A stretch of 64,000 bases of DNA from Warburgia ugandensis. Taxonomy: Eukaryota > Streptophyta > Magnoliopsida > Canellales > Canellaceae. The DNA is taken from assembly GCA_035236585.1 (NCBI GenBank), contig CP141135.1, positions 8,900,001 to 8,964,000 of the forward strand, written 5' to 3'. Within the stretch, counting starts at the first letter, position 1. Each line of letters begins with the position of its first letter. The notes beneath the pieces are model-generated. The model saw only the letters and a list, made by a program, of their open reading frames with translations. It did no database searches and had not been told where the DNA came from. Shown one piece after another: positions 24,559 to 54,620 of the stretch. The position numbers and the translations under genes are program-made.

Positions 24559-24580
24559 TAATATATATATATATATATAT
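24559..24580. repeat. (TA)n microsatellite
   Basis: This is an uninterrupted TA run of about 22 bp. Confidence 0.9.
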
Positions 24581-31372: not shown

Positions 31373-31399
31373 TTCTGTGTGTTCTTGGCAAAGAATAGC

Positions 31400-32570
31400 A
31401 CTAACATGAATGATCAAGGTTGGTTTTTTACAGATACCCAGTTGGGGAAAAGCTACATATCCTGCCAAGTCCACCACACTTCTATACTCGCTTGCTTAAA
31501 GATCCTAAACATTCATGCTCTTTGACTAGGTTTCATTGAAATCAACTTATATTCGTAAATGAATTATTTCAGACAATTGAATACCCAATCAAACAGTTTC
31601 CTTGTCCATTTACTAGTTATTTTTTTCTTAAGTTCACATAAGACACTCCAAACAAAGATGAAAACTATCTACTCAGATATGCAGGAATGGAAAGGAGAGG
31701 TTTTCATGAATCACTTACCTCTTGATCTTTTATGCCAACCAATCTTGGGCCACATGTCGTGGTAATCAAGCAGAACAAAAAGAGAATCAAATTCAATGTT
31801 CTTCCAAATATAGATATCTACTCTCCAGCGACCAGCCCAAATATTGGCTCCGTCCCTCTCTTTTGTTTTGTCTTCTTCTACTAGAGCTTGGGAGAATATG
31901 TCTCTCCTAGTCACCGACTTGAACAGGAACTATTGCTTGTGCATTGCTGAAACCTCTACAAGGCTTTTAAAGGAAGAAGGAGAGGGAAGAGAATTCAAGG
32001 AAAGAAATAGGCAGGCCATCTCACCCCCATCCGTCTGTTGTTTTACTTGTTTTGGCTTGATAGTTTCACCGTGTTTTCTTCCAAGGTGTAAGCCAAGTTC
32101 GATAACCGAATAATGCATAACATAACAATATGGGACTCGTTCCTTTGCTTACACGCATACAGGCAAATAGTCCAGACATGGTCAATTCAATGGAGAAAAT
32201 TTTGCCTTGTAATCGGTCCTAATTAATGTGAGATCTTTCTGATTGAGTCCAAATCAAAATCAAGTGTTCTAGAATCTAAAAGGTGATCGCCAATCCGATC
32301 ATGCCGTCTGATTAATCCTCACTATCAATTTCTAGGGCTGCGTGATGAGTGTACGGGTGTATACTGCACCGATATTTCCACCGTACGATTAAGTCTTCCT
32401 CTTTTCTTTTTTCTTTTTTTAAAGTTAGACAAATTCACCCATGCGCAACCTCAGATCCTCTACATGAAAAAAGAAAAAGGAGTTATATATACAAAGAAAT
32501 AAAGAGAATCATCATCTAAACAATTTTACTTTTCTGTACTTCTTAGTAAAGGAGAACGAATCTCTTGCTA
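31400..32570. other. Upstream region of the UPF0496 gene
   Basis: This probably holds 5' UTR and promoter of the minus-strand gene. Overlapping short frames on both strands at 31711-32118 have no domain resemblance. No TATA box could be assigned. Confidence 0.35.
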
Positions 32571-32574
32571 CTGG

Positions 32575-32640
32575 ATTATCACCAGGCAAGACTAGAGACT
32601 CTTGTGCAACTGTGCTAGAAGGCTTTGGTGCACCATAAAA
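32575..32640 (-). mobile_element. Fragment of the tRNA-like SINE family also at 7205
   Basis: TGTGCTAGAAGGCTTTGGTGCA is shared with the copy at 7283-7305, and the following GACTAGAGACTCTTG recalls its B-box side. Truncated; low certainty on ends. Confidence 0.4.
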
Positions 32641-34290
32641 TTAGGTTTTGGGAGAACCGTAATGATATTTGATGGATCAAGGGCCTTAAGGTGATCATCT
32701 GATGAAAGAGAAACAAAGGCACAATGGAAAAGATTTGTGTTCACTTGTTAGGTGTATTAACTTGATTTTAAGCTACTTAAAATGAAATTGGTTACTGATC
32801 AAGATAGAAGAGCGTTCTTTAACAACGAAAGGACAAACCCAGATGCGAAAACCATGGCACTTGATATCAGCTGACAAGCTAAACCTTTTCGATGTTGGGC
32901 TGATAGTGTACATGACATTTTCTTTTTCGTCTGGTCCATCTGCCTTAATCATTCCCGGCATCAATAGGTTAGTGTCATAAAGGTTAAGTTGCGTATAAAC
33001 CTTTCAATAAATATAATTTCATTACAAACTGGATTCGAGAAGTTTATACACCACTAGATTCAACTTTTCGATCGATTCCTGCGTTTACATGCCATCCATC
33101 CCAGATCAGGTTGAGGTGATAAGCATACATGGTGATTATCCTTTGAGGAATGATAGCACGGTGCTGCTCTGGAGCCCCCCCTTTTTGCATCATGCCCCTC
33201 ACCAGTGGTTCTTCAGACTCGTCCATTTTGAATTTTCTGATTCCAGTTATCTTGTATGCAAAAATTCAATGTAATTGGGTGGTTCTAAGATCAGAATACT
33301 CTATGCTTCTTACTTGTTAAACGTGAACGGGTGTTTGAGCAATGTTTCTCCCCACCTACGATCAAAAGTACTTTATTTTTCATTTTCATTTTCATTTTTT
33401 CTGACTTCCTAGTGCTTTATTTTTCCTTTTTTCCTGATTCCAGGCTCATCCAGTCATTGCTATCTTTGGAGCAGGAATCGTCGAACATCAGAGAATTTAG
33501 AAGGGAGGGTCTGATCATGATCCAGCATAGGCGGGACCCAAATGAAAAAATGAGGCGCGCTGCAACAAGTTTCCAGATGAAATTGTCAGTAACTACTAGA
33601 TGCTAGCATAAAACTGAGCAAGCAAGATTAGTCACTACTACTTTTGTTTGTTCCGTAGAAATAAGGGAAAGCAGCCTAAGTCGTAAGTGGATCGGTATCG
33701 TGATATAGCAGTAAAGGTAAGACGTGTAGGCGAATCCACTCATCAAGTTCTGATTGAAATAGGATCTCTCGGTTATGTTATGGTTGGAGGTTCAAGGTGG
33801 TACATTTTCCTGATTGGGCACACACATTAATGGGTCACGCCTCAAATTTGTGGTAAATCTTTCTATTTGTCGGGGATTCTTGGAAAGCAGAGCATTTGTA
33901 AGATATTTCGCTCTTAAATGCTGTTTGTTGAGGTCTTTGCTCGAGATGCTTAAATGTTCAATTGTAGATGTAATCAGATGAGTCTTGTGCTAATATGAGC
34001 AGCCCTTCTAAGTCCTGACCTTTGATTCGGGACGAACCACAGTTATAACATAAAATTTCAATCCGATTATATCGTATGGGGTGGTCACAGTTTTGGTTTT
34101 TTTCTCTGGAGAAGAATCAAGAAGTAATATGAGCTTGGATTAGAATATCTGGTGAGAGTTATCAGAAGGTGCATTACTTTGGTCCTTTTAAGAGCAACTC
34201 GTGTATTGAAGGAGGTATGACTTGGTCAAGACTAGTGCATATGCAATGCTTATACAGTTTTATGCATTTTTTAACTATTTATAGTTAGAA
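32641..34290. other. Intergenic DNA, no gene supported
   Basis: Short frames (for example 33044-33274 on both strands and 33331-33606) are not recognisable. No repeats longer than about 20 bp were noticed. Confidence 0.4.
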
Positions 34291-34422
34291 AAGGGGTGGA
34301 CCACAGGGGTCAATAGTATGCAGCTTTACCTTGCATTTTGCAAGAGTCTATTTCCGTGCCTTGAACCCGTGACCTCAAGGTCACATGACGATAATTCTAA
34401 TGTTGTGCCAAGGCTTTCCTTC
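34291..34422 (-). mobile_element. Au SINE copy flanked by an 18-bp target-site duplication
   Basis: The minus strand reads CCTTGGCACAACATTAGAAT, a GTGACCTTGAGGTCACGGGTTCAAGG B-box block, AGACTCTTGCAAAATGCAAG, CTGCATACTATTGACC and GGTCCACCCCTTTTC. The usual 3' CCGGGCTGCCC end is missing. It is flanked by TTAACTATTTATAGTTAG (34271-34288) and TTAACTATCCATAGTTAA (34423-34440), which match as an aged target-site duplication. The pair supports insertion of an already 3'-short copy at this site. Confidence 0.8.
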
Positions 34423-34440
34423 TTAACTATCCATAGTTAA

Positions 34441-36097
34441 GGACCAAAAATAATCTAATGGCGGTCAGAATTGTAGTAATGGTTCGAAATCTTGATCATT
34501 AAAGATCTAACGTGTACAATCATATGGATGGTTAAGATTAATAGTAAGTTAAGACCCACTTTGTAAAGTATAGGCCCGGAAAGGCCTATCAGATGGTTCC
34601 TTTGAGGAAAAGAAAAATGAAAATGAACTATAAGATGGCTCGTTTTTGAAGTATTGTAGCAGTCGCGGATCTTTAAAGTTTTTTCAGAAGTGCCAAATTG
34701 CCAGCAGTCCCGAAACTTGTGTGGTATGTTGGCCACGGGGATAACAAAGTAACAACCGTGGATAAATCTTTACCACCCGCTAATCTGGCAGCCTGAAGAT
34801 GTATAATCTGTGTCAAGCGTTGGTATTCATTACCCAGTGGCTGAGAGTAATGCATGAAATTAAATTTTCAAGCCGTGCACTGGAGTTTCCTGAAAAGTAA
34901 ACCGTTTGGGTTGAATAGTTCACATAGCTTTCCTTGTGAATCTATTTTCATGTATCTCTCATCCAATGGCTAAACAAATGCAAAGTGCACAAACCCAAGA
35001 TTCCCAACCCTTTGAATGATCAGGATTAAACTCACTAGATTAGGTCTGTCAATTTTGAATCTTATGTTGCATGATATCTTATGGTAATTAGGGAAATGTA
35101 TCTGGGACATTGATTTGTTGGCCACAGTATTTGAGGGCCGAGATTGTCTCGATTCATTATCTAAATCCAAGCGTGAAAACCTAATATGAGTTCATTCCAC
35201 TAATTTTTGAGAGCTTTAAAAATAGGTTAAAAAAACTAGGGTCCTTTTTAAGGAGAACCAAAAGAAAGTTCAGTCTCCATTCCCTGTACGGTTAAAAAAC
35301 AAAAAGAAAAAAAAAAAAAACAAACAAACAAAATTTTCCTTTTTGTTCTTTTTCATTAGCTTTTCAGAATGAGATTGTAGTTTAGATTTCGGCCAAGGTT
35401 TTAGATAGAAAGGAAATAAGATTTTTATCTGACTACTGTCTATTAATCGGTCTTTCAGAAATTTTGTTTCTGATAATTAAACGCCATTGTAGCTACATTT
35501 AACATGCATCTCTTTATTCCACTCCTTGAATCTTCGTACCACCGAGGGAGTTGAAATCATAACATATGGCCAAGATTTTTAGTTATTATCAATAAAGATA
35601 ATAAGATGTAATTTCTAAGAATTGATCAGGTTACTAACATAGAACCTCTTATCGGTTGAGCAAATATGATAGTATCTTAGGTTTCTGCTATTGTTATAGG
35701 CTCATTCTCCTTTGTTTTTTTATTTTTTCTTCTTCCTCTTCAGAATCTGAAACTTTGAAATCCAGGTTATTCTCCACCCAGCATTGTATTTTCTCTTCTT
35801 GTTCTTCCAATTCGTCAATCAATTCACATGGCCATCAAGAAACTTTTTGCTAATTTCCTTGATTTCAAATGCATCCATTTTATCTTTAAATTCTCGATAA
35901 TTGTTGAGATCGGTCTGGCAGTAGGATTGGGATGAGATTTCTCGGATGCTAGTCATTCCCAAATGGATCCAATTTTGTCTGTTATCAACCATCGGATTAA
36001 AGTAGAGATGTTAATGGGTTTGATCCACCGGCCAAATGGTGCCAGCCAGTAATGTGTTGCTAAGAAAGATGGCTTTTGAGAAATTATCAAATAAGCA
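34441..36097. other. Intergenic DNA downstream of the CAD-like gene
   Basis: AT-rich, with an A-rich tract near 35300-35335. No gene, RNA or transposon domain recognised. Confidence 0.4.
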
Positions 36098-36233
36098 TTA
36101 ACCGGCCCCCTTATTATGGAAACAAGTAAGCATACACATGGACAGAAGAAGATAAACAGTCAGACACAAGAAGAACAATGAACTGAACCTGCAACAGAGA
36201 CAAGTACAGATGGGAGCAAGGTCTGGGTCCGAG

Positions 36234-38742
36234 CTAGAGTTGAGACTCTTGGGCCACATCGATAACAAAGCGATATTTAACGTCGTTCTTGGCAAGCCTG
36301 TCCAAGGCTTGATTGATATATTCCGGTGGGATGAGTTCAATGTCGCAGGTAATATTGTGCTTTCCACACAGATCCATCATCTCCTGTGTCTCCTTCATGC
36401 CTCCAATTATGCTACCCTTTACTGCTCGTTTACCTGTGTCCATGAACGTAGACCAAATATTAGAGACTTAAGTTTTGTTATCTCAGATCGTAACACTGTC
36501 CGATTGCTTACTTTTCTTTATCTGGAGCAGTTGTTATCATCTGGCCAGTCCAGATTTTTTATCATTCCATTTCAATGGGACAAAGAAACGGTCTAGATCA
36601 CACTATTTCCTGCTGTAAGTTTGCAATGGAGAAGGTTTTCAGGCACTGCAAGTGCAGAACTTAGACGTACCGAATATCAATGGAAATGAAGGCAGCTCCA
36701 CGGGCTTATCAGGCGCACCAACCAACAGCAGGTTCCCACGAACTTTTAGCAAATCCAAGATGGGGCCCAGATCGTGCTTCGCAGAAACTGTGTCCAGGAT
36801 GAAATCTAAAGATCTCGCCCCAGCCTGTTACATAATAAAATTACAGAAAATAATAACATATATATCATGTAATTATCATAGAAATTAATAATCGTAGCCG
36901 TAGATGATACCGAGATTGACCTGCATTTGCATCGGATCGGTGCTAACAATGAAACCATCGGCTCCCAGGCGTTCTCTTGCCTCCTTTTCCTTAGAAGGAG
37001 TGGTGCTGATGACGGTGACATGGCATCCAAAAGCCTTTCCAAACTTGACCGCTATGTGGCCCAGGCCTCCCAATCCAACGATCCCGATTTTGTTTCCAGG
37101 TTGGAGAATGTTGTGCTCTTTCATGGGACTGAAAACTGTAATACCGGCGCACAACAGCGGAGCAGCCGCATCCATCGGTAGAGTTTCCGGCACATGGACC
37201 ACAAACCTGATACAGGGAGAAAGATTTAAACTAGTATTTCTCTTCTGCTGCATCATAAGATCCGGAACGTGTATCTTGTGGACCCATCAGATAATCTCTA
37301 TCTGATAATCACTCACTCACGATGATCGAATGATTTAACATTCTGAAAACTGTGTTTTTGTACATTAAATTAAATGCAAGTTTTAGATATGGGCTTCCCC
37401 TAACTCTTCTACATCAGATGATCCCAGCAGTTGGTTTGTAGAAAGTTTAAAAGCAACCGTTTAAATTAGAGTTACTAGCAATTAGACGATAAGTTCAACA
37501 ACAATGCACGATTTTTTTTAGCGCTGAAGAACATCTAAACCTTGATTTATTACCATCTACTCTTTTCTTTATTTAAAATTAATAAAAAAATATATAAAAG
37601 GCAGCACTATACATGAAGCTCCAACATATGAAGAGTTTAAAGAAAGTATAAACTACAAAGGATTTATAGTATGCAGTCTTACCTTGTATTTTTGCAATAG
37701 ATTAGTGCTTTACCTCTTGTGAGCGACTATCGTTTGGGAGTAACCACCGTATGTGATGCTCCCGTCCCAGAAAATGCCGTTGTAGGTAAGCTGCATCTTG
37801 TCACAGTAATTCTCCTCAGAATTTTTGCAGAAGTCGCATTCCAGGCAACTCGCTGCCATGCATCCGATTCCCACTCGGTCTCCGATCTTAAATCCCTCGA
37901 CATTTCCCCCCACTTTTGTTATAATACCCGTAATTTCATGCCTGGATTCACACAATCAAGCCACATGTCAGCAAAAGAATAAAGCGATTGGATGAGTTAT
38001 CGGAGCGTCTGTAATAAGAAAGGGACCCAGTTAGGAACAAGGATGATTTACCATACCCGGGTACTACAGGATACATGGTGATTCCCCAGTCGTTTCTGGC
38101 GAAATGGATATCAGTGTGACACATCCCACAATAGAGAATTTTGATGGTAACGTCGTCAATTCCGTTTTCCCTTCAATCCATCAAAATGAAGAGTTAGACA
38201 AATTATGACTGTATATAAATCGGCAAAGACTTGCGAGGAAATTGCTTTTGTCTGGCTCCGGGAACCAGTGAATCGATTTCTTGTTAGGTTTTGACGGCTA
38301 AAAGTGCGTGCGGGACCCAGAATTCAACTGCTTGGATCACCAATGACTTAGGGCCCACATGCACTATTACAGTCTACTGATACAACCTGGCCGTTGACTA
38401 CCGTATGTAAGGGCCCTTCGACGGCCGGCTAATATTACAAAGGATGCAGATTCCGGTAATGATCTAACCATCTTATTTCTCAACCTTTCTAACCATTTAA
38501 TCTAAGAAAATGAGCCCGTCATTTTACAACGCAGATCGAATAACAAAGGAAGCCTGCCACGGATGATAGATCAGGACCCGGAAAAATGGTTCCCATCATG
38601 ATCGGATTGAACACAAAAGCAAGGTGGGTGCAATATAATTTTCATACCTCCGTTTGAAGATGAATGGAGTGAGTTTGCCGGAGGAATCATGGGCAGCCCA
38701 GCCGGAAACTGTCTGAGTATGGTTTGGGGTCGTCTGAGTCAT
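36234..38742 (-). CDS. Cinnamyl alcohol dehydrogenase-type zinc alcohol dehydrogenase (CAD/mannitol dehydrogenase-like), six exons
   Basis: The coding exons are 38742-38648, 38170-38057, 37941-37714, 37206-36921, 36824-36671 and 36433-36234 (TAG). All introns are GT-AG and in phase, giving 358 residues, the usual CAD length. Catalytic zinc ligands C49 (YCGMCHTD), H71/E72 (PGHE) and C165 are present. Structural zinc cysteines C102, C105, C108 and C116 are present. The Rossmann motif GLGGLG lies at 190-195, followed by [10 protein letters not shown], where Ser/Lys contacts favour NADP(H). The enzyme is a cytosolic medium-chain dehydrogenase interconverting aldehydes and primary alcohols. CAD-like paralogs act on cinnamaldehydes, 8-hydroxygeraniol or mannitol, and sequence alone does not decide the substrate. 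No inactivating change is seen. Intron 3 carries an Au SINE fragment. Confidence 0.92.
37596..37706 (-). mobile_element. Au SINE 3' part inside CAD-like intron 3, next to the splice donor
   Basis: The minus strand reads TTGCAAAAATACAAGGTAAG, ACTGCATACTATAAATCC, then GTTGGAGCTTCATGTATAG and TGCTGCCTTTT, which are the consecutive 3' blocks of the Au SINE. It begins only about 7 nt downstream of the intron 3 donor (GT at 37713-37712), and the A and B boxes are missing. It is part of an otherwise normal 507-nt intron. Confidence 0.65.
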
Positions 38743-38810
38743 TTTTCCCGGCCAAAACCAAACCAGGTCTTGCCTCTCTCTGATATGCTTACAATATTAA
38801 CAATGTAAGC

Positions 38811-38820
38811 CTTTATTTAG
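38811..38820 (-). promoter_or_regulatory. Candidate TATA box of the CAD-like gene
   Basis: The minus strand reads CTAAATAAAG about 70-80 nt upstream of the CAD-like ATG (38742), a spacing compatible with a short 5' UTR. It is a weak match and no experimental evidence is available. Confidence 0.35.
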
Positions 38821-39670
38821 TGACTGATTGTGGGCTTCCCAAGTCAGTAAACGACTAAACAATGCCTAGCTGTCGGAGCGTTCCATGTCTTGGAATCTCC
38901 CGTCTGGAGTCATAAATGTGTTGATTTTGTTTCATTTAGTTTTAATGAGAAGCAGATTATCAATCTAAGGGAAATGCTCCGGAAGGGACGACCTCCTTGC
39001 CCTCAAACAATAACAGTTTCTAGAGCCCACATTTTCAAGATCCGACTCATTTATCTTATAAAGAAGCTTGTGGTTTCAATGATTTCAGCCTCTAAAAACT
39101 GTGCTTAATTAGAAACGGACATGCGAGAAATTTTGGTAAACAAAACACAGCCCTTATATCTACAAACATCTAAATTAAGACGAAGCAATGAGATGGACGA
39201 CTACCTCGTATGGGTTCAGTTTAGCATCCCTCCAAACGTACAAGTGACACCACAATCAACATGGTAAAAAAAAACAAAAAAAAGACGGACGCAGACTTGG
39301 TCCTGGACCTCCTACTTGACTCACTAATATCCACTGACATTTTTTTTATTTAACTCATAACACACACGTATATATATATAATGTGCAAATATCCTTTCTT
39401 ACATCTCCTAAAGAAAGGCAATGCACCTGAAACCACTTAAGAAAGAGACGCAACAGTGGGTTATATTGACTTTTGTGCAGCCACTGGCATCTTTTTTAAG
39501 TTCAAAACACAAGAAGAAAGAGCCACATTAAAAAATGACACATTTTATATGTTAGAGGACGCTTTACTCACGCTGCTGACTGATCACCAGTTGCACTATT
39601 AGACTTCCTAAAGACATAAACAAAAGATAAAAAGGGTAGCTTGATGCAAGAAGTTCCTGTGCATGTGGAT
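38821..39670. other. Upstream intergenic DNA of the CAD-like gene
   Basis: No gene is recognised. The candidate promoter of the minus-strand CAD-like gene lies at its left edge. Confidence 0.4.
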
Positions 39671-39673
39671 CTA

Positions 39674-39790
39674 AAAAAAGGGATGGACCACAAGGGTCTA
39701 CACCCTCACCTTTTATTTTTATACTTGGCTGTTTCTATGCCTCAAACAGTGACAATTACAATTCTACCATTGTGCTAAGGCTCCCCTTCA
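39674..39790 (-). mobile_element. Au SINE fragment
   Basis: On the minus strand: GGAGCCTTAGCACAATGGTAGAAT (5' tRNA-like block), AATTGTCACTGTTTGAGGCAT, GAAACAGCC, AGACCCTTGTGGTCCATCCC. The blocks follow the Au SINE order with internal losses. The 3' terminus is absent. Confidence 0.65.
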
Positions 39791-40530
39791 AAACCATTAA
39801 CAAACGATAACAATTGAAAATGACATGCCAATTAATTAATGTTTTCATTTTCCCTCAATATATTAGCATAACAGTTTGATAGCCAATTATCTCCCGTCTT
39901 TTTCTCTTGTTTACGAGTCTAATGGGGAACGCTAAAGTGATTCCATAGGCCACTTTTGCTCAAGCTCTCTTGCATTTTCTGCCTAAATAGTTGGAAAAGC
40001 ATGCGGATTGAACTATTCTAGTGTCTTGAAATTGGTATTTCTGACCACGGGAAATGGGCATGTTAGAACCTTTGTGTAAAAAAGGTCTTAGTTGTTTTAC
40101 AATTTTTTTTGGCTCTGTTACTTTTCTTTTTCTTTCTTTTTTTCAATCAAAGAATTAAACAAATTATCCTAGAACCTATTATTTTAATTCTTAAATCTAC
40201 TTAAAATCTCCTCAACAAGGGAGAAGTATCGCCTCAAACCTCCCACAGCCTTGGGATGTTAGAATCACTAAATCATCTTGATTTTGTGTTTGAGGACATC
40301 AAAAGCTGGATCAATCAACAAACAGGTTAGATCATCCATTGTGGGGCTTCATCATGCAAAAGTAAGTGGCCTAATGGACATGCCTTTATAAGGGGTGTCC
40401 ATTTAGCATTCCTCTTTTTCTTTCATGGTAGGGGTAGACGCTCTACATGCTCTTAGAAGTATGTGCTCTAGAGTGTCAACATGTCATCTTTTAACTCACA
40501 AAACTCAACTATTATTACAACTTTTTAATT
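39791..40530. other. Intergenic DNA
   Basis: AT-rich, no gene or repeat family recognised before the left end of the TIR element. Confidence 0.4.
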
Positions 40531-41485
40531 TGGGATTTTTGCAAAAATGCTATTACATGTTGCCATTTTTGCAAAAAAGTCTAATGTTTTTTGAGTTTTG
40601 TGAATTTGCTATTAAGTTTTCATGAGCTTTGCAAAATTGCCATTCTATTAGTTTTTCATCTTCTTTCTTTGTTAATTTTTTTAAAATTTTAATATTGTCC
40701 TTCTCTGTTTCTCTCTCTTAATATGTTCTAGCAGAACTGATACCTCACAGACACAGATATGATTAAGTTGCCAACTTTAGCCAGAAAGTTTGTTGACTTT
40801 TCGATGAAAAGTTTCCATGAAACTTGGTATGTAAATAATTCGGTAACAAGAAATCTAATGGTATAGTTAGATTTTAACAAAAACTAACTAGTAGTGAGAT
40901 ATGCAATCGCAAACATACCATGTTTACTAACTTGTGCAACATTACCTATTGAGCTTCTTCAATGAAATTGAACAACTTAAGCTTCAATTTCTCACTAAAA
41001 AATAATATAGAACTCTTACTACTATGAATTAGAATATAATCAATGCTTTGGATCAATAAAAACACAATAAATTAAAAATTTTCAAGTTTAAAACATAAAC
41101 AAAATACTATTACTATATACACAAATGGCGACAAGTAGTAGAGCTCTTCATTCGATGCCTTTTGGAATGAAAATTAGAAATCTAGGACCTGGGTCTTCTT
41201 CCTCTCAACATTTTCTATCTAGCACGATCTATTTTAGAGATTTTTGTTGATTAATAAAGCAAAAACTTACATGCAAAGTCCTATTAGAACATATTAAGAG
41301 AGAAATAGAGAAGGGTAATATTAGAATTTTAAACAACCAAGAGGAAAGGAGGATGGAAAACTAACAAAATGACAATTTTGCAAATTGAGCTCACAAAAAC
41401 TTTATGGCAAAGTAGTAAAACTCAGAAAACATTGCACTTTTTTGCAAAAATTCCAAAATTTAATGGCATATTTGCAAAAAACCCC
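40531..41485 (+). mobile_element. Long-TIR non-autonomous DNA transposon, copy 1
   Basis: The left end reads GGGATTTTTGCAAAAATG, then CCATTTTTGCAAAAAAGTC, TTTTGAGTTTTG, and TTTGCAAAATTGCCATTCTATTAGTTTTT. The right end is the reverse complement of the same series (AAAACTAACAAAATGACAATTTTGC to TTTGCAAAAAACCCC). The inverted ends are about 150 bp and imperfect. The interior (~650 bp) has no transposase-like ORF. Ends of this length with no coding capacity fit a Mutator-like non-autonomous element, but no clean target duplication could be fixed. Confidence 0.75.
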
Positions 41486-42937
41486 TTAAATTTTCTTTAA
41501 AAACTATTTTCACATAAAGTTATATTTCTTTTGCATTCCATCACAGCTCCCGATCAAAAGGGAGTTTAATTTTTTTGAAAAAAAATTGCATTTTAGTAAA
41601 TTTGATGGAAAATTATATAAGCACTAAACCGTCAATAGCATCACTTGCCCAATCAGCTTCAGAAAAGGTGCCAAGGAGAAATTAGATGAAGAGTACTGAA
41701 TTGTAAGACCATGCATAAGTGAGAGTGAAAATAATGACATACTTGATTAACAACAAATGCAATATCTATGCAAGTATGGGTAAGATACCAAAGAAAGCCC
41801 ACCAATCTGGGGTATAAAGTAGGAATGTGTAGTAAATCACTATTAACGGATGATAAGCATGAACCAGAAGTGACTAGCAAGGCATGACTAACAGGAATAG
41901 TATATTGAACTTTTCAAGCAATGCAATGGCATATTTACTTCGGGCAAGAAAAATCTTGTTACGTGTCAAGACACTTTCATGCCAAGGAAGAAACTGAGAT
42001 CACCCAAATCTCGAGTGTCGAAGTGGCAAATAACTACTGAATAAACAGCAACACTTCTTGAGAAATACTGCCACTGACAATGGTGTCATATATGTAGCCC
42101 AACAAAATCAAAATAGTGGGGCTAGTCCGTTTGTTGAAAACTTATTGTAGTAAAAGAGTGAAGACGACGTTGAAATCATGCTCGTGGAGCTTGCTTGAGT
42201 CCATAAATAGCTTTTAATCAAATGTATATATGTGATATGGCCTTGAGGGATCAACATATTCTGGTAGTTGCAGGATATAAACTTCCCGAGGGGCCATTGT
42301 TTAGACATTTCTAGTGCAAGAACTACTTGAATGTTGGAAGGTTTGACGATCGAGCTGAAGGTCTCATTGTAGTCAATACCTTATTTCTGGTTGTAACCTT
42401 GGGCAAGATTTGTGCCTCTCAAATAGTATCATCAACGTTTTCTTTTAATTTTGAAAACCCACTGGCTGTCAACCATATTCATGTCAGGTTTTCATGGTAT
42501 AAGATCCCAAGTTCCATGTTGAACATGTGCAAAAATACTCTTCATCACATGACCTGTTCCAATACAAAAATTATCTTGCCTAAGCTTAAGTGCTAGGTTG
42601 AAGGACAAGGGATCATTAAAGGCTACAGTGAGAACAGTAGAGATGAAAAGCTTCAGAATCATCTCCCATGTAATCTCATTAATACTCCTGTACTTTCGAT
42701 GGTGACGAGTCATCTAAAGAGGATAAAGAGGGGACAAATGTAGGACTTAATGAGTGTAGGGAGGTTGGTTGCTTATGACTAGAACCAATAGTAGAGGGTA
42801 GTGTTTGAGGCGACGATTGGTTAACAGGTGAAGAAGGTGGATTATGGTAGGGAGCATTAAAACCATCAGATGTGTTATGAGCTCTGGACAGAGGGCAAGT
42901 AGCATCCAAAAGTGCTGAGAGATTTATTTATTTTTTT
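41486..42937 (-). pseudogene. Ty1/copia pol relic (linker, RT, C-terminal RT) between the TIR elements
   Basis: On the minus strand, starting at about 42909: a Ser/Pro-rich linker with HNPPSSPVNQSSPQTLP, a TRHHRKYRS segment, HGTWDLIP, VDSQWVFKIKRKR, AQGYNQK-GIDYNETFSSIV (- is a stop), SNIQVVLALEMSKQWPLG, and at 41880-41659 YPRLVGFLWYLTHTCIDIAF followed by VVNQVCHYFHS. These are the standard copia RT blocks, in order, split by stops and frameshifts; the YGLKQAPRAW region is scrambled. No integrase, gag or LTR is visible. Confidence 0.8.
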
Positions 42938-43865
42938 GGAGATTTTGCAAAAATAATATTATATTTTGGCATTTTTGTAAAGAAGTCCAATGTTTTTTTA
43001 ATTGCAAATTTGTCATTAATTTTTCTTGAGTTTTTCAAAAATATCATTCTATTAGTTTTCCATCCTTCTTCCTAGTTAGTTTTTTTCAAAATTTCAATAT
43101 TAACCTTTTAGCAAATGGGTAATGGTGAACAAGAAGATTTTGCAAATGAATTTTTGATTTATTAATCAACATAAATCTCTGAAATTGATTTTTCTAGATA
43201 GAAGACATTAAGAAGAAGAAGACTCGAGTATTAGATTTTCAATTTTTATTCAAAAATGAATCAAATAAAGAGCTTACAATCTACTACTAATTGATGTTAG
43301 CATGAATAGTAACAATATTTTGCTTATGATTTAAACTTAAAATTTTTTTTATTTTTTTTTATTAATCTAGAGCATTGATTATGTTCTAATTTGTATTAAG
43401 AAGAGTTTTATAAAAAAAATTTAATGAGAAATTGAAATTGTTTAATTTCATTGAAGAAGCTTAATAGGTATGTTGTGTAGGTTGGTGAGCATGGTATATT
43501 TGTAATTAATTATCTCACTATTTTTTAGTTTTTTTGAAATCTAACTATATCATTAGATTCCTTGTTATTGAATTATGTTAGATACCTAGTTTCACTGAAA
43601 CTTATCATCGGAAAGTCATTAAACTTAGTGGCTAAAAATAGTAACTTAATCATGGGTTACAGTTCTAAAGTATAGAACTTGAATTCAAAATAGAGAGGGG
43701 TAATATTGGAATTTTAAAAAACTAACAGGGAATGAGGGCGGAAAACTAACAAATGGTAATTTTGCAAAGCTTGCAAAAACTAAATAACAAATTTGCAAAA
43801 CTCAAAAAGCATTGGACTTTTTGTAAATTTGCAAAAATGTAATGGCACTCTTGCAAAAAACTCTT
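42938..43865 (-). mobile_element. Long-TIR non-autonomous DNA transposon, copy 2 (inverted)
   Basis: The ends carry the same ~150-bp inverted words as copy 1 (GGAGATTTTGCAAAAATAAT ... CTTGCAAAAAACTC). The interior is in the opposite orientation: CATTGAAGAAGCTTAATAGG here is the reverse complement of CCTATTGAGCTTCTTCAATG near 40946 with one difference. There is no coding capacity. Confidence 0.75.
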
Positions 43866-46800
43866 CTTTTTTTTCTTAGAGTAAGTGTAAGCAAATGAGG
43901 TGGATTTAGGATAGGGGCGACAATTATTGATTGAATATTAACATGCAGACAAGATTCGTTAGAAATACTTTCAGGCAATAGTTAATATGGAAATGAGCAT
44001 TTATCAAACGCCACATGGTGAGAAATATAAATGTAATTAGGTTCATACTCACGTAGGCCTTATGATTCGAATTGCACCCAAGGATCCATGCTCAGGTTCT
44101 GCCTGTTTTTAAGAAAGTTCAAGATTACACGAGGGTGTGTTTACCATTCAAAAGACAAAAGAAAAAAAAAAAATTGAAAGAAGAAGAACAGAAAAGTGCG
44201 GTGAGCATGCATGGCCGAACACTTTCAAAAGAGTTGGTTAGCATTAGTTTTTTATAGGCGTCATTTGAGACACCACAGGAGATGGAAAGTCAAGAAAACC
44301 GCTGTAGAAAAAGCCTCTAGCCAAAAGTGAGAAGGCAAACTTGCTTGACTAAGCAAACATAGACCCATCTCTACAACATGGCAATGTTTTCGCTTAGCGA
44401 CCAGTTCTTTTGGGGATCTCTGTCATCATGCATGCTTCCCAAAAGCATCAAAACTGCACGAGCAATTATAAACGGATTCCCGTTTTATTGACGATGTATT
44501 TTTCAATTTCTACTGATATCGGGAATAATGATAGATTAGTTAGCAATCTATCTGTGAGTGGATTTAGGATAATTTTTTTCTCACTGCGTAGACATCCAAC
44601 TTTGTCTGATAAACAATAAAATGAGGGTCCATCTTGTTTCACTTTATTTTACATTGTTGACAATTATAATCACAATGTTTTAAGTCTTTAGAACTTTGTG
44701 CCCAATGATGAATACATTGCAAAAACTATTAGCCTATAGAAAGATTAAAAAGGAGGCTAATACTCAGGCAGAATCATCTCAACAACTACCATTGCTCTAT
44801 CCTACATTACTTGAATAACTTTCTAGCACAGAGCAATTATATGATCTCGTTCTTAGCACTGTCCTATACTACAACTTGATGACATCAGTAAAATTATTCT
44901 GACAATCATCCCTTCTTACATGAGAAATTGAATCCCATGTCAACCTAATAGTTTGGACTTCCTTAATCCTAACAAAATATAGTGAAAGTACCAAACAACA
45001 AGTACAATGAGTAATAAGGTAATGATATCTGATAACAAATAATTTAACTCGAGAGTTTAGTTAAATTACTTCATATAAAGTAGTTAACTTCTGAATTAAA
45101 AGTTCTAATTGGCTAATCAAAGTACGTTGGAGTTTGAAAATGATTAAAGTCATTTCCAACATAAGGCAGAACTTATGAGATAATCTTTTAAAGATCCAAT
45201 TACTTTTCCTAATATATTATTATAATTAGCTTGGCTTTACATAGTTTAGTTCAATATATTTTCTTAGCTTAGTTGAGTTTTATTTTTGTACTTGATATAG
45301 TTTAGTTGGTTTTAGATCAATTTAGTTAGGTTTATTTACTTCTATTTTATGTTTTTCACATGCTTGACTTCTAGACACTTGGCTAATATAAGCACAGTGC
45401 AATTCCTATATTAGAGAATTAATTTAGGCTAATGTATTTAGTTTTTAAAAATAAACTTTTATCAACAAATTCCTCAACTTTTTTCTTTAGTTTCCAAATC
45501 TTATTAAGTAGCCTTAGAAGTAGACTTAATTGATCTACTGTAAGAGATTAAGAACTCAAATCTTTGGCTATTTTACCTTAAAAAGGCTAGATCCTATAGG
45601 CAAATCTACAATGGAGAATCAGTCGTGATTTTTAGTGAAATAGCTAAATGATTTTTACTTAATAAAGTGCTAGTATAATTAGAAATCACCTATCATTCAT
45701 TACCTTTGTAACCTAATATCTAGACAATTAATATATCTGTGGATATCCTAAAAAAGGTTCAACACCTTGATAGTTCTAGGCCTATTAATTTAAGCATCCT
45801 ATCATTTTTGGATCTCAACTTCAGTCATTCTTTTCCAGGGCTAACAATTGTTGAACCCATATGACACATCGTTCAGCCACTAACCCAAATGGAGTGCAGC
45901 TAGATCAGCTGAGATTCTCCTTGTTGTGTCTGTTTAGACCATTTAAATGGTACATGGACGTTCCATCATCTGCTATGATCCGCACCCTTCCATCTTCAAT
46001 GCCCAATGTAGATAGGTCAATTGGTCATGCCCAAAAGTAAAATCCATTGGAAAATCGTAGTCCCATGTAGTTATTCATACTCGAGAATCAAATGAAGCAA
46101 ACTCAAATAGGCTTCAATGCCCAATCTTGATCCAATTCACTAAGACATGCCCATGGGCTTGTAGGTAGTTGGTATCATCCAAATTGTTGGATCAATTGAG
46201 CCACTGGTCCGATCAAGACGCCGTCATTGTAGACCTTCTAGAGTATGTGTAGGATGTATAATTGCCTAACCACGACTTCAGTATTTGGTAATTTTCCAAA
46301 CCATTCATCTTCTTGACCCTATCCTGTGTGGGCCAAATTTTTGTCCACTGAATAATCTTTTAAGCTTACAGCTTCCAAAAGTAAACAAAACCCTTCTATA
46401 CATCAGCAGTATAGAATCATCCATTGGATGAGATTTGTTAGATGGCCTATCTAAACAGGATCCTAAGACTGGATGGTTTAGATCACTTTTAGCGTTAGAC
46501 AACATCTACCACATACTAAACGCCAGTCTAGTAGCATCAGAAGGGAAGAGTGGAAGACAAGTGTTGGCAACCATGTTTTGAGCACTTTTTTATCCCTTTT
46601 TTTTTTTACTAATGTGACTATTATGGTAACCATTAGACTGTGGTTTACACCATAAAACAACTTCCTGGTATCTCCCTAAGGAAGGGATTCTTTGGCACAA
46701 AAGTAGTAATCCATGAATTAGATTATCCAATGATAGTTTTCTTCTTCCCGACTATTGCTTAACCTGCGAATGGATATAAAGCAATCTGAGAGAATAGATG

Positions 46801-48959
46801 GGTGGCCTTAATTCTTGGGCTGTTGGCTGTACATAATCTTAAAACTTGGGCCGTTAGCCTATAAATAATAAAGTTTGCGAGGATACAACAGAAATCAGTA
46901 TTAATGGATGGTCTGAAAAATAGCTAGTTATTCTTGTTCCTCAACACCCACACTGGAGCTGTCAAATGGGCGAGTGACCAGCTGGACATGTTACTCACAC
47001 CTGCCTAAGGCAGTCATGGGCCTCACTTTCAGAACCCGTTTGAAACTATGCGTAACCCGACCCGCCCGTCTGCTGCATTGCTCCTCATGTTCTTGATAGT
47101 GAATCTCTTGCACTGGCAGAAGTCCTTACAGTGCTTGAATGAGCTTCGAAGCAAGGACTCATGGTGCATGATCCGGAAGTTTAGAACTTTTTGGTTCACG
47201 CCAAAGGTCGGTTAGAACTATACGAGTCCAGAGGTTTAAGGGGATTCCATCTATGTCATCGCAATTTCTCTTCAAAATTTCCCCAGAGAGTTCTCTACCA
47301 GTGAGCCCGAGCCAAAGATAGGTTAGATTCAATTGAAGAAATAAATAAGTAATATACCCGTGACAGGTTGGGCGCAAGGCTTTTCATCACCCCTTTAATA
47401 GACTTATCTTATTATAGTAAGATAATTTAGAGTATTATTTCCTATTTGATCCCTTAAATTTTAATATTCAAAGTTGCGATCGATCTATTCGTTAACGAAA
47501 AAAATAGATTTAACATAGCTAACGACGCTGAAGACATCTTCAAAGGGTAGGAGATTTCATGACTGTTTGTTTTTTTATCTTGATACTAAAGAAGAGTTTG
47601 ACACAGTACTTTATTTCTGTCCTAGTTCATCCTAATTCAAGATTATAAGTATTTTGATTGTTCTCCAATATCCACACCCGTTTGACCCCACTGACCCTCC
47701 CAAGTCCGCGTGTTTGACAGCACGACCGATGACTACATATGCTGGCTATTGGACACCGGGATTACAAATCGTAGATAATCTTGCTATTGACAGACTTAAA
47801 ATAAGGACAAAACTCTTGAAACTTACCTATAGATGGTGATAGCCTATGGGCTGGCCTAGTCTTTCATCTTTAATTCGTCCCATCTGTTGGTAGAGGGGGT
47901 CTCTAACGCGAGGCGCAGTGAACTTTCCCTGAAGTTCGGTGCGCTGTAGCAGCCTACGATCAGATGATGGCTAGTCTTCCTTTAGTTCCCGATCAAGTCA
48001 CACCCGGTAATTTGTTTGCATGAGACGTAAATATGAGAAACTGCCTAAACTAAGGGTCCATTGCCCGGTAATTAGTTTGCATGAGAGTCTAACCTTCCCA
48101 TACTCTATCCAATGATCAATTAAATGTTCGACGTCCATTTCACAACTCATAACAGCAAAGGTTAGGACCATAGAACATATCCGATTTTTGGGCCATGGCC
48201 CCATCCACGACATGGTCAGACGACTAAGACCACGTTCTCCATAGTCTTCATTAACAGGACGATATATAATTTTCAAATTATAGACCAATCCACTGTGATC
48301 TACGGTCATCATTCATTGGTTGGTATGGTTCTGACTGATTCCAGAAATCCCAACAGTCAAATGCCCCCATCGTACTTAAAAAGATATTTGAGGCCTGGAA
48401 CAATTCAACCTAAGATATCTTATATACTGTAGTTGATGGAGAGTTGCTGTTGCCACCAGTTTTCTTATCTTCAGGAGTCACGTTGCTCCCTCTCAGTCTC
48501 AATTTTAGAAACAAGCTAAAAGTCCATGTGGGGCCGAGATGGTTAATGATCTAAACCGTTAATCTTCTGGACAACATCCAAGATAGGAGATCCTGAAAAT
48601 CTTCGATATTGGAAGAACTTAGCCCTTGCTATCACTGTACTTGAATATTTTGACCTGGCCAGTGTTCAGCAGAATATCGTACAATAATAAGACTAGCTGA
48701 TTCCGAACATCTCGTCACAGAAACATCAGAGGTTTGATCTTGACCGTCGAACGTATATAAGTACGGATTAGGAGTAGACTAGGTCAATTTTGCCACCTGA
48801 TCTTTTAGTTCATATATATCAAATAACAGAATTAGAAAATGCTAATAATAAAGAGTATTAAAAGCGATCAATTTGTTCAAAATCCTGTATTTTATTGTTA
48901 AACATGTAAATAAAAAGATCAAATAAAATAGGTAACCTTGGCTCGAGTTGCTCTTCAAA
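43866..48959. other. Gene-poor region downstream of the AMS ortholog
   Basis: About 5 kb without a supported gene. The longest frames (47159-47377 and 47998-48312, minus) resemble no protein I know. A short direct repeat of GGTAATTTGTTTGCATGAGA / GGTAATTAGTTTGCATGAGA occurs at 48006 and 48067. The stretch 45220-45480, rich in TTTAGTT words, may be an old LTR. Confidence 0.4.
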
Positions 48960-49067
48960 TCACGCCCGATGGTGGAGATGATGAATGGGGTCGTGGTGAT
49001 GATGATGGTGCTGATGAAAATCCCTTCCGCCATTTTCGGTTGTTCGGCCCTGCTCTGACCATCCGGG
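48960..49067 (-). other. In-frame His-rich tail behind the AMS stop codon
   Basis: After TAG (49070-49068) the same frame stays open for 35 codons: PGWSEQGRTTENGGRDF, then HQHHHHHHDPIHHLHHRA, and TGA (48962-48960). A GW segment followed by a His-rich terminus is the known C-terminal style of AMS proteins, so this is the family's tail cut off by a stop codon, not chance sequence. It is either lost coding sequence or is reached by alternative splicing. Confidence 0.75.
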
Positions 49068-52000
49068 CTACGGATTTCGTGTTAGCTCCAGCAATGAATC
49101 CCTCACCTGCTCAGCTTGAACAACTTCATCATCCATCTTCTGGAGATGATGAATATGACAAATCTTAGCTAACCACCATAACAATCTCAATTGAATTGCA
49201 AGAGAAAATACATGGTTTGAGGCGCACATGTTTGATGATCCAAATGGTTCATTCCCATGCCCATGATGTTAGATAGGCAATCCTCCATTGGAAGAACTTA
49301 ACCCTCTGATTGGTTAAAATCTATCCTCAGTTTGTTTGGGCTTTTCGAGCCGTTTAATGCTTACATCTACTTAACATCATCAAGTGGTGCACATTTTTTG
49401 TGGATGGCCTACTTAAGATGTCTTAGATGATGAACGGTTTAGATCGCCAAGCATTCAACTTCATGCATGAATTGCTTGGAAAAGTTAGTCATCATTATTT
49501 ACCTTTACTCTGAAAACGTTCATAACCAGGGCTCTGAAGGTGGTAACGTTGGCGTTTGTTACTTCTAGTCCAAGAGAATTCAAGGCCTCCATCAACCTTA
49601 CAAACCCACCAGGCTTGTGCTCACAGAGCAACTTAAGGAAGAATTCATTTCCATCTACTTGGCTCACTTCCACTTGAGGCTACATAAAGTAATCATTGAA
49701 ATAAATAATTGAAAATGCAGTTTTAGAGGAAAAAATATAATTTGCATTAGGATGTTTAATTCATTATCATACCTCCATTTGTTGGGTTTTGTCATCTGTA
49801 CTTAGAGACTCTTGATTTTGCTTCATCAGGTCAGGAGTTCTAGTATGAGAGGAGCACCTAGTTTCATGATCCACTGCTCCATTTGGTGATCCCTCATCAC
49901 CATGGCTAACTGAATTTTGATTTGGGATTTCTGATTGGGTGCTGTTATTGGTGGTGGGTTCGTTCTCCTTCGCACCTTCTTCCCGTGATTCCTCGAGTTC
50001 ATCTTGGAGGTCCTCCACTTGCTTCTGCAACTCCTTCACAAATTCAATGGCATCTCCAAGGATCGCTGCTCTATCCATCTGAAATTCATAGAAAAAGGAA
50101 AACTTGGAAACTGGTGAGAAGCTTAAAGAGCGAGACAACAAGCCGCGGACAAAATTATACTTCAAACAATGATCTTATCCCTACTATTGGCAGCTCTAAA
50201 ACATAGATAAACTTATTTAGACTTAGATAAACCACAGCTAAAAACAGTACGCTAAAATGTTACAGATCAATTCTATCCATGTTTCAATGTGTCAATAGCC
50301 TTTAGAGGCTGTTGGGGGAAGGGGGGTAACAGACCAAGGATTGAGTTGTCCATGGACAGTTACGCTATTCCTTGCTGTTTGCAGCCATTAACATAGACAA
50401 AATTGCTCAGGAGAAAATACCCCAAGATTTAGTGCTATCTTATCAAAGTTTCATTAAGTTTATCTATATTTCCACTCGAAAATAGCAGGGATAAAATGAT
50501 TATCCATGAATAAGCTTGTTCATGGCTTGTTTTCCCATTCTTAAACATTTATCATATAGTGATGGTGAATTACTGACAAAAAAAATAGAAGATAATTCCA
50601 GGATTACCTTTGTGATCTTAGGGACCAGTGCCCGTAAAGCATAGAGCCGATCATTGAGTTTCTTCCTTCTCTTCCTTTCAGCCATAAGATTCTTCGATTG
50701 ATGTCTTCTTCCAGAGCGGCTTACAATCTTCTGATCATCATCATCCTCAATCTGATCACTACAATCAGAAACAGAATCACCTCGGCCATTCTCCTGTTTA
50801 ACGGGATCCTTGTCAAAGCCAGGCTCTTTCGTCTCTGCAGATTCCATGAGAGATTGGTGCACCCTTGTACAAGAATTTCTAAGAAACGGTGGAACAGCTA
50901 CACTATCTGTGGACCCATGATCAATGGCTGGATTAAAAAGTGGAAGCTTATCAGAAAGAATGGCATCTGTCGATCCTTCGAAGAACATGTCGCCCTTGGG
51001 CCGACTGTCAGACGGTACGAATTGTTGTCCACTAAAGAAATTCATTGGGGACCCACACAAACGGATTTGATCAGCAGAAAGGTCCCATGGCAAATTCAGA
51101 TTATCGGTCAGAGGAGGAATCCAGGGCTGAAAATGGTTGGCACTCTTAGGAGAGTAGTTATCGGGTAAAAAGGATTTTGATGAATGATCAATCGGGTTTT
51201 CTCCGCCGAATCCCTCATTTAACGACAATCCGTCGACTGATTGTTCATGGAAGGTTGTGCTTTCACCACTTCGGATAATCATGGTTTCCTGCTCCCAGGT
51301 GGAACTGAACTGTGCCATAACGAATTCTATGATCTGCTGATCTTCTGGAACCTGTTAAGTGGCAATGGATGATACATTTCTATATATGAACTTTAGAGTT
51401 GATGAAAAGGGCACGCAAAGATCATTCCAATTTTGTTTATAACTAGAAAGCTATTTTATTATAATCACCCAAAGTGTGTGTTCATAAGAGTAACCGTAAC
51501 CTGCCCATCATTTTCAATTCCTTTTTCCTTTATCCGATGTTTATTTGAAGTCTTTCAGGTTGCTGTTACAGTTCGTCAGTACTTGCACAATAAAGGCAGA
51601 AGAGTTTAAGGGACGATACACCAAACTATAAGTGGGACCTGATGTTGGTAATATAGACCATTGTTCTTCTGGATTCTTAGGTGAGGCCCTGAAATCCAAT
51701 GGAAATAATGATCTTGCCCCTCTGATTTTGAATGGTTCAGATTTCCGGGACATGGCCTGTCTAAGATAATGGTCTGGAATCTGAATGGTTTGGATCAGAA
51801 ACATCTGGGCCCCCACTTGTACTTTCTGCTTTCCTACAAGTAGCTATCATACATGTTCCCCTTTGCGGCATGTACTCTAGCTCTTGTTATTGACTGTGTC
51901 CATTTAGTTGCTGCTGCAGCTCCTTACCCCTTTGCAGCCAACAGGAAGATTTTCACATAAACAGAATGTGTGGATTTATAGAAACAAGAGCTATAAACAT

Positions 52001-52162
52001 TCAGTTAACAGTTTGGTTAGAGAGAGGGAGGGTGGTTGTAGATTTGTACGTGTTTTGCAACAAAGAGCTCTACCAAACCACCAGGAACTGGAACCAAAAC
52101 TCTTGTCCCGAGTATCTCCTGCAGCAAATTGTGTGAAAATGTTAATATCATATTCTCATTAA

Positions 52163-52210
<48 letters not shown>

Positions 52211-52887
52211 CAAGTACACCCACCTCCGAAATGCTGGATTCTGGGATGTTGTACGGATTTAACCATTTGGGTTGGTTTGAAATTAAGGCCTGTGAGTGAT
52301 TCCTGTTTATAATCTTACAATTTAGAGAGAGTTTTAGGGTCTTAGATGCTAGATATTGTGCAGAAAAAGGAAGCAATATGTTAAATGTACCCGGAGTCCA
52401 AGGGCATGGAAGAAGGCAATTCGGCTAGAGCATTACAGTTACTGGTTCTTGGGTGTTGAAACATCACATCCCTACAAGGAATAATCGGAGAAACAGGAAA
52501 CAGTTGCTCTTCTCTTTTCTGATCATGACTATCAGGCCCTCCACAACAGCAACTCATCCATTCAATGCACCTGTATCAAATATTAGAACACCAAAGAGAG
52601 AGAGAGAGGCCTGGGAGGAAATCCTATCTTCATATAGAAGTGAAGAGGAAACACGACATTGTGAGCCATCATTCCACTTCACATTTGCACCCACGCAGTT
52701 CCCAAAAGAGACGACAGAGGCGCGCGCGCACACACAGATGTTATACATCTTTTGATAGCTGGAGCTTGTAAACGTCATTAGTTACTCACCTTTGATCACC
52801 ACTCAATTTCCAAACTACGCAATGGTCCCAGCCCATCATGCCCACAAGGGGTCTTAGCCTTTCCATGGGACTCTGCAACAGATTCAT
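49068..52887 (-). CDS. AMS: ABORTED MICROSPORES-type bHLH transcription factor (bHLH21), eight exons
   Basis: Exons: 52887-52790, 52570-52391, 52302-52224, 52118-52050, 51351-50608, 50078-49773, 49679-49503 and 49139-49068 (TAG). All introns are GT-AG with matching phases, giving 574 residues. Residues 1-150 are the bHLH-MYC N-terminal domain ([57 protein letters not shown]). The bHLH is at about 361-410, with basic residues [20 protein letters not shown] (N363, E367, R368, R370, R371), the loop VPKITK, and helix 2 [14 protein letters not shown]. From about 493 an ACT-like fold follows ([30 protein letters not shown]). In model plants AMS acts in the tapetum, dimerises with other bHLH proteins and activates pollen-wall genes; rice TDR is the counterpart. 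I chose M at 52887 because the family starts there; an in-frame M lies six codons upstream. The frame ends right after LLELTRNP, shorter than the family (see findings). Confidence 0.93.
52164..52208. repeat. (AC)n microsatellite inside AMS intron 3
   Basis: An uninterrupted AC run of about 45 bp ((GT)n on the gene strand), starting about 16 nt after the 5' splice site. The intron is only 105 nt (52223-52119). Confidence 0.95.
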
Positions 52888-52995
52888 GTCCGCTTTAACA
52901 ATCATTTTCCTGCACAGAGACGTAGCTTCTCTTTGTAAAACATAAACCTCATATTGAGACAGAAAGAAAGAGAGATTTCGACAACAGCTTGTGGG

Positions 52996-53002
52996 TTTTA
53001 TA
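52996..53002 (-). promoter_or_regulatory. AMS: Candidate TATA box of AMS
   Basis: The minus strand reads GCCTATAAAACCC, about 110 nt upstream of the start codon at 52887. This predicts a transcription start near 52965 and a 5' UTR of about 80 nt. It is a good consensus match at a sensible distance. Confidence 0.5.
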
Positions 53003-53059
53003 GGCAAAACCAAGTTAGTAACTTGACGGGACAACTTTATGCCGGCCTGACACAAGTAC

Positions 53060-54620
53060 TTCCTCTAACTCCCGATGACTACTTTGACTGAGCTAAGAAA
53101 AAGGAATTCACAAACTCAGCTTGATAGCAATTGATAACTGCACCATATCCTTACAAGACACAGACGACGTCACTTTTTACAGCAAATGCTCATGTTCCTT
53201 TCAAGAGGAAACGATGGGAAATGCTTCACTCTCTCTCACTAAATAGAGAAGAAAAACTATGGAGACTTAGATAATTAAATTGCAGAGAAGGGATTCAAAA
53301 ATGGATCTGTTAATTTAATTTAGAGGCTGTTACAGTTAGGTGAAGTGCAGTGGAGGCAAGAAGAGATTAGCGTAGATGAGTTTGTTTTCAGTTTCTCTTT
53401 CCTCCCCTGTGAGGGGGTTTGGTTTTGTTGGCACGGAAAGAAAAGCAGGAATCTTGTAATGATGAGACGGGGATTATTTGGGTTAGTGGGAACGTACAAA
53501 ACTCTAACAACTTCCCACAATTGAAGGCCTCGCCTGTAGATGGTCTTCATCAATGTTAGTACAGAAATGCATGTGTATATGTACATATAAGTTTTTGATT
53601 TGGGAATTACTTTGCGAGGCAATGTTTGAAAAATTAGGAACATATATAGAAGACTTTGGGAAGAATGGCAGATATAGGCCACGACGTGAATTTCAATTCA
53701 ATTGTAATATATTTCCTTTTGCATTTTTTATTTTTCTTAAGAAGAGTATTTAACCAAATTGAGAATGTCTTCACCCGGACAGGATAATGATTTGAACTAG
53801 AAAAGAGAGGCTCAATTGGATAAGAAACTAGGTCACCTAAAACACGTTTTGAGCAGCAATCTTTAACAGTTTTATCCCATGGTTAATCTAAGACTCCCTT
53901 TAGTACTCACAAATACAAAGAAGACCACTTAGTAAGGGTTGCAATGGGCGGGTCATTTAAGGGAATTCGATTGACTTGTAAGAATTAGGGTTAGAGGCAG
54001 AAAATGTACGATTCATGTCAAACCCGTGTTCTAGGATTAGGATAAAGACATGCCTAGCTCACTAATCATTTCAAATTGTTAAACAAGACAGCCGAGGTGG
54101 GATTGAATAGGTGGGCCCAGCATGAGTTTTGGCATCAAATTGAACTAAATTCGGGTAAATTTTGAATCATTAAAACCTCTTAAATTGAAAGTTCTATTGT
54201 GGATGGAATGACTTGAATTTCAACTCTAGTTTCATAAAAATTTCTGAGCAATTTTGTTCCTACAAATTCCATAAAAATTCAAGTAATTATAAGAAATTTA
54301 AGATTTTCAAAAAATATAAAAAATAGACAATAAAAGGTCAATTGTTGAATTATGCTCGACAAGAGCTTTCCAACAATATTAAGAACGTGTGAAACAAAAA
54401 CCGAGGACTCATACCTTAAAATTTTACAAATGAAGTGAGGGGAGTTGAAATTGATAGTGATGACCTCTTCACCTAATAGTTTTATGCCTGATGACTCAGC
54501 ACGAGGAGCTCAACATCTTGGAGTCGAGTCATCATGTAGAGCTCAACTTTCTGCAGCATAAAGTATGGTATGGTAAAAGGCAAAAAATGGGGGGAAAGAA
54601 GGACAAAGCACCCAATGGTC
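53060..54620. other. Upstream intergenic DNA of AMS
   Basis: Beyond the promoter-proximal part, no gene or repeat is recognised. Frames at 53320-53753 and 54482-54667 have no domain. Confidence 0.4.

Follow-up and report, generated by a model that had tools for sequence, protein, structure and literature searches.

One of the two AMS genes of Warburgia ugandensis, a magnoliid tree of the Canellaceae, ends at an in-frame TAG just behind its ACT-like domain, and the family's His-rich tail remains open in the same frame behind the stop. The gene lies in the window (the whole stretch of 64,000 nucleotides that was analyzed), and its twin on another chromosome encodes an unbroken tail. AMS controls tapetum and pollen-wall development, and the Arabidopsis protein ends in a His-rich tail. 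The feature in the window is real, and its likely explanation is a genuine nonsense truncation of one duplicate, which the plant would tolerate if it can do without the tail or obtains it from the twin; this is a rather ordinary explanation, with a control built into the genome.

A stop immediately past the ACT-like domain

The window copy is encoded on the minus strand in eight exons that can be joined with GT-AG borders (Table 1); there is no other premature stop, and the protein up to the TAG has 574 residues. PF14215, PF00010 and PF22754 each score above cut-off in the truncated protein, in that order, and the nearest proteins among the best 120 of 595 homologs are AMS-like proteins of Persea and Tasmannia. 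Domain order, best relatives and tree position indicate that this plant bHLH gene is an AMS ortholog, as the sequence-only reading had proposed. The ACT-like domain is matched over profile positions 1-72 of 75, the same as in the tailed Tasmannia protein P0002, and thus the stop falls just behind the domain. Over the coding part of exon 8 (23 codons), the window copy and its twin on C4 have 5 synonymous and 0 amino acid differences. A perfect CA microsatellite of 22.5 copies in intron 3 (window 52164-52208) is a possible marker for the window copy.

Table 1. Positions in the window of the AMS gene, its stop and tail, and the duplicated block.
Feature	Position	Strand	Basis and remarks
AMS exon 1, start codon	52790..52887	-	GT-AG model; homologous C4 exon 85.7% identical
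AMS exon 2	52391..52570	-	GT-AG model; homologous exon in C4 copy
AMS exon 3	52224..52302	-	GT-AG model; homologous exon in C4 copy
AMS exon 4	52050..52118	-	GT-AG model, domain match; exons 1-4 and start of exon 5 encode bHLH-MYC_N (PF14215)
AMS exon 5, basic region and first part of HLH	50608..51351	-	GT-AG model, domain match
AMS exon 6, rest of HLH (PF00010)	49773..50078	-	GT-AG model, domain match
AMS exon 7, most of ACT-like domain (PF22754)	49503..49679	-	GT-AG model, domain match
AMS exon 8, coding part ahead of stop, end of ACT-like domain	49071..49139	-	Translation, GT-AG model, domain match
In-frame TAG	49068..49070	-	Translation; AAC in C4 copy; Asn in Tasmannia, Persea and Phoenix; Thr in Aristolochia
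35 open codons behind TAG, homologous to the family's His-rich tail	48963..49067	-	Translation, homolog comparison
TGA that would end the tail	48960..48962	-	TAA at the aligned place in C4 copy
AATAAA, candidate poly(A) signal, 63 nt behind TGA	48891..48896	-	Motif match only; aligned AATAAA in C4 copy too
Duplicated block, window vs. C4:48680834-48720534	16927..54015	opposite orientation	About 37 kb, same order with gaps

Translation of positions 49163-48900 on the minus strand bears out the earlier description of a last exon that ends at a TAG, with the same frame open to a TGA. The 35 codons in between read PGWSEQGRTTENGGRDFHQHHHHHHDPIHHLHHRA. A run of 12 His in 18 residues had been reported here; the His-rich run is present, and the count in its core is 11 His in 16 (or 18) residues, one fewer than stated. 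When the bases of the tail DNA were shuffled, 30% of the sequences remained open, and none of 20000 was both open and carried at least 11 His in 16 residues; the open His-rich frame behind the TAG exceeds chance.

The TAG differs from the AAC of the twin at two bases. By parsimony both probably changed on the window branch, from an ancestor that was likely an Asn codon, with a possible route via Lys or Tyr. The Trp codon that named tail-less relatives keep behind the residues TRN lies three codons behind the TAG. Ten of 17 residues are identical between the window tail and that of Tasmannia, and the tail is not obviously decayed, which would fit a young stop and also a tail that is still in use.

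The His-rich tail among AMS homologs

Tails were scored in the best 120 of 595 homologs, counting from an anchor placed where the ACT domain ends and located in 118 of them; the exceptions are P0034, a model that ends earlier, and P0082, a Protea model that continues into a DUF677 protein. With at least 5 His within some 20 residues as the threshold, 97 of the 118 have a His-rich tail, a count that includes isoforms and congeners and is hence not one of independent cases. The other 21 comprise 16 proteins with a longer tail and fewer His, and 5 that end no more than 11 residues from the anchor (two from Nymphaea, one each from Telopea and Macadamia, and one EukProt transcript). Arabidopsis is not named among the best 120 of 595.

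The 17 residues ahead of the His run also resemble the family: their mean score against 113 homologous tails longer than 12 residues is 30.3, while 1000 shuffles of the same residues average 15.5 (sd 1.6) and none reaches 30.3. That close relatives might lack a His-rich tail, raised earlier as a ground for abandoning the idea, is contradicted by Tasmannia, Persea and Aristolochia, and by the C4 copy, all of which have one. These comparisons indicate that the open frame is the family's His-rich tail, as first proposed, and that the stop lies inside the homologous stretch. The protein encoded by the window copy has no such tail, the TAG standing ahead of it; since the tail is common but not universal (97 of 118 scored), its absence does not exclude membership in AMS.

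Nine of the 120 listed homologs were aligned with the window protein. Before the stop, Tasmannia lanceolata P0002 and Persea americana P0001 share 68% and 65% of aligned residues with the window protein, respectively, and their tails are homologous to the window tail; the Tasmannia protein also has the same domain order (bHLH-MYC_N, HLH, ACT-like). Both continue into the His-rich tail, whereas the window protein ends at the border of the ACT domain. In this it resembles Telopea P0047, Macadamia P0054 and Nymphaea P0111 and P0024, which end just behind the ACT-like domain. These tail-less proteins keep the Trp behind TRN (NGWPELV, GDWPERP), however, while the window protein loses it and is shorter at its C-terminus, and in the window copy a His tail still follows in the DNA. 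AMS proteins of Nymphaea (P0024, P0111) and Proteaceae (P0047, P0054), as well as the short Amborella model P0182, have no His run. This suggests that the tail was gained within angiosperms and lost at least once; it may have been added after Amborella and Nymphaea split off and later lost in Proteaceae, if this polarity is right.

A second AMS copy in a duplicated block

A genome search with exons 7-8 and the tail gave five matches. Two are the window exons themselves, two are exons on C4, and the fifth, weaker, lies on C12 (49%, to the exon 7 part only). The C4 matches belong to a second AMS copy (C4:48682135-48686113) with all eight exons, 78.9-96.0% identical in DNA to those of the window and with GT-AG borders. 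Its frame is unbroken and encodes 606 residues, ending ...LTRNPNPGWSENGRATENGGTDYYQHHQNHLNSQHLHPHLHHLHHQA. A TGA flagged inside the second C4 match sits ahead of the exon's acceptor site, in intron 7. The C4 tail is less His-dense than the window tail and six codons longer. With 85% protein identity, the same exons and a position in a duplicated block, the C4 copy is the sister gene of the window copy.

Phylogenetic trees were built from AMS homologs without an outgroup from other bHLH subfamilies. The first, without the C4 copy, used 25 of the 120 listed homologs (P0024, a doubled gene model, was dropped) and left the position of the window copy open among magnoliids and Phoenix. In the second, with both copies and 18 of the 120, window and C4 copies are sisters (100/100) and the pair stands next to Tasmannia (Winteraceae) with moderate support (83/82). 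The earlier account of an AMS ortholog with the family tail was therefore correct as far as it went and incomplete, as the gene is one of two co-orthologous copies, of which that on C4 is tailed.

Besides the AMS gene, the block shared with C4 holds an ADH/CAD-like gene and a DUF677 gene, which match at 83% over 107 and 361 residues, respectively. One piece is inverted (25680-26204), nothing matches between 38765 and 48315, and a further window match at 7523-7963 fits the same order on C4. A stretch of about 1 kb, made up of exon 1 and roughly 860 nt of upstream sequence, is 81% alike between the copies. Since about 37 kb including these three genes is kept in the same order, the copies derive from duplication of a chromosomal block and not from transposition of a single gene. 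Together with the coding dS of about 0.29 at AMS, the block hints that the lineage underwent a block or whole-genome duplication.

The DUF677 frame (363 codons, window 29674-30765, minus strand) is open and lies downstream of AMS on the same strand. The annotated Protea model P0082 fuses AMS with a DUF677 protein that is 51% identical to that of the window; the AMS-DUF677 neighborhood seems old, and the Protea model is a probable mis-fusion. A short dispersed repeat, which aligns over about 80-136 nt and may be a small mobile element, occurs at window 34287-34424, at C4 48685664 in intron 7 of the C4 AMS gene, and at seven other places in the C4 stretch. The copy in intron 7 may explain the greater length of that intron (535 vs. 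363 nt).

Body and tail substitutions were compared across both copies and four homologs, with changes assigned using Tasmannia as outgroup. Between the two copies, the body (564 codons) has a dS of 0.288, a dN of 0.071 and a dN/dS of 0.25; of its amino acid changes, 26 are assigned to the window copy and 20 to the C4 copy, while 30 could be placed on neither branch. Branch lengths are 0.098 for the window copy and 0.090 for the C4 copy, and the truncated copy has evolved no faster than its twin. For the tail (35 codons) dN/dS is 0.61, based on few changes (5 synonymous and 13 non-synonymous differences), with 4 amino acid changes assigned to the window copy, 3 to C4 and 3 to neither, plus an in-frame gap of 18 nt. 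The AMS body is constrained and, in this comparison, the tail has evolved faster than the body; the tail numbers cannot tell a tail that has been dead for part of the time from one that is loosely constrained.

A neutral gap rate was taken from the introns of both copies and from 200 nt of their 3' UTRs, including intron 1, which aligned poorly (p-distance 0.449). Frame-breaking gaps occur there at 2.05 per 100 aligned nt, so that a 105-nt tail would be expected to gather 1.08 along one branch (P(none) = 0.34) and 2.15 along both (P(none) = 0.12). Preservation of the frame was accordingly set aside as proof of tail use, being weak evidence if a tail neutral since the duplication stays free of gaps with P = 0.34. 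A crude age bound was likewise given no weight, since it used assumed dN/dS values and the branch of 0.28 from a tree lacking the twin. For the same reason, the earlier conclusion that the stop is recent or the tail still used is plausible and not forced: with copies dS 0.29 apart and a probability of about 0.34 of seeing no gap, it is weaker than claimed.

Probable truncation and competing readings

On the reading that we consider likely, duplication of a chromosomal block in the Warburgia lineage would have given two AMS genes, and the window copy would then have gained a TAG, from a probable Asn codon, at the junction of the ACT-like domain and the His-rich tail. Ribosomes would stop at this UAG; as the codon is in the last exon, no degradation of the mRNA is expected, and the transcript should be stable. 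The plant would make two forms of AMS: a 574-residue protein that has all three domains and lacks the 36-residue tail, and a tailed protein from the twin. The tail-less protein could still bind DNA and dimerize, and the loss would be tolerated if the tail is not needed for these functions or if the twin provides the tailed form. Truncation is supported by the 5 of 118 scored homologs (best 120 of 595) that likewise end within 11 residues of the anchor; counting against it, the window protein is shorter at its C-terminus than the named tail-less relatives, the Trp behind TRN being lost, and the assembly presents one haplotype, which leaves room for a heterozygous or rare stop, or for an error added to one real substitution.

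If the TAG were an erroneous base, or if the sequenced material carried it as a rare or heterozygous allele, most plants would make the tailed protein from the window copy. We regard this as unlikely. The single haplotype and the otherwise intact frame and tail agree with it, and so would the Nanopore reads, the greenhouse-grown material and the heterozygosity of 0.24% given in the available text of PMC11139940, if that Warburgia ugandensis assembly is the one used here. The same text describes two long-read and four short-read polishing rounds and lists the read deposits CRA014162 and CNP0004586, and the joined exons carry no other lesion. A lone base error does not explain a TAG that is two base changes from its likely ancestor; one real substitution would have had to come first. 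Sequencing error, which had been named as a possible refutation, loses probability through the two bases that separate TAG from AAC and, given that assembly, through the short-read polishing, with an error atop one real substitution as the form it could still take. Independent sequence from the species was sought among protein fragments: translated intron 7 plus exon 8 as query gave three candidates, none with E of 0.001 or better, and exons 7-8 gave 62 hits, the top listed identity being 83% over half the query, none of which looked to be from the same species. RNA came from young leaves only according to the available text of the genome paper (PMC11139940), and from bark and leaf only according to that of PMC4549110.

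It is quite improbable that the window copy has begun to turn into a pseudogene since the duplication, with the stop as its first visible lesion. A twin with an intact tail makes for redundancy, and one copy does carry a nonsense codon. Against this, neither several lesions nor relaxed evolution, the marks by which a pseudogene would be recognized, were seen: there is one premature stop, the branches are of nearly equal length, and dN/dS in the body is 0.25. Splice sites and domains are intact, the stretch with exon 1 and its upstream region is still 81% alike between copies, and loss of the tail leaves every recognized domain in place.

The least probable reading is that the window copy still makes the tail, by readthrough of the UAG or by an in-frame splice, and yields tailed and tail-less isoforms. 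The preserved frame and tail composition would fit it. As in type I readthrough of Tobacco mosaic virus (TMV), the base after the UAG is C and the frame beyond it is open; in the TMV context, changing C to G at this place abolished readthrough, according to the available text of PMC2754532. That text gives the TMV-type motif as UAG followed by CARYYA, which was not found behind the window UAG (UAG CCC GGA); the window case further differs from the viral one in that translation past the stop is hypothetical. The 78 nt of RNA behind the stop fold locally no better than shuffled sequences (z +1.06), of which 171 of 200 did equally well or better. The claim that the tail is still used thus gained no positive support from stop context or downstream fold.

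Two in-phase splice options would bypass the stop and appear possible on paper only. One joins a donor-like CAG|GTGAGG at 49106 in exon 8, also present in the C4 copy, to a CATCAG acceptor ending at 49011, removing the TAG in a 96-nt intron; the acceptor (pyrimidine share 0.41, T share 0.29) is within the range of the gene's weakest real acceptors. In the other, the AG within the TAG would serve as acceptor, in phase with exon 7; its T share is 0.12, compared with 0.29-0.59 in real acceptors. Either would delete conserved ACT-domain or junction residues. Two further points oppose continued production of the tail: chance alone would leave it free of frame-breaking gaps in about one case in three, and the twin already encodes a tailed protein. 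We hold it equally improbable that the stop acts as a switch, such that the window copy makes mainly the tail-less protein and the tailed one at some anther stage via readthrough or in-frame splicing and, with the tailed twin, tunes the ratio of the two forms.

Under truncation of one duplicate, a natural experiment on tail function is available within a single genome, where one of two close AMS copies has the tail at its C-terminus and the other lacks it; the tail-less AMS proteins of Proteaceae and Nymphaea add natural comparisons for testing it. Our guess, by analogy, is that the tail could serve in subnuclear targeting or metal binding: human His repeats direct proteins to nuclear speckles, according to the available text of PMC2644819. 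Among titles and abstract beginnings, searches for AMS with histidine terms found no paper about the role of the tail, and none was found for AMS together with Warburgia.

Elsewhere in the window, a direct repeat occupies 57092-59571 and 61508-63991 (spacing about 4.4 kb, blocks 87-98% identical). Perfect microsatellites of CT (54970-55067, 49 copies), TTA (55456-55496, 13.7 copies) and GA (8508-8572, 32.5 copies) are also present.
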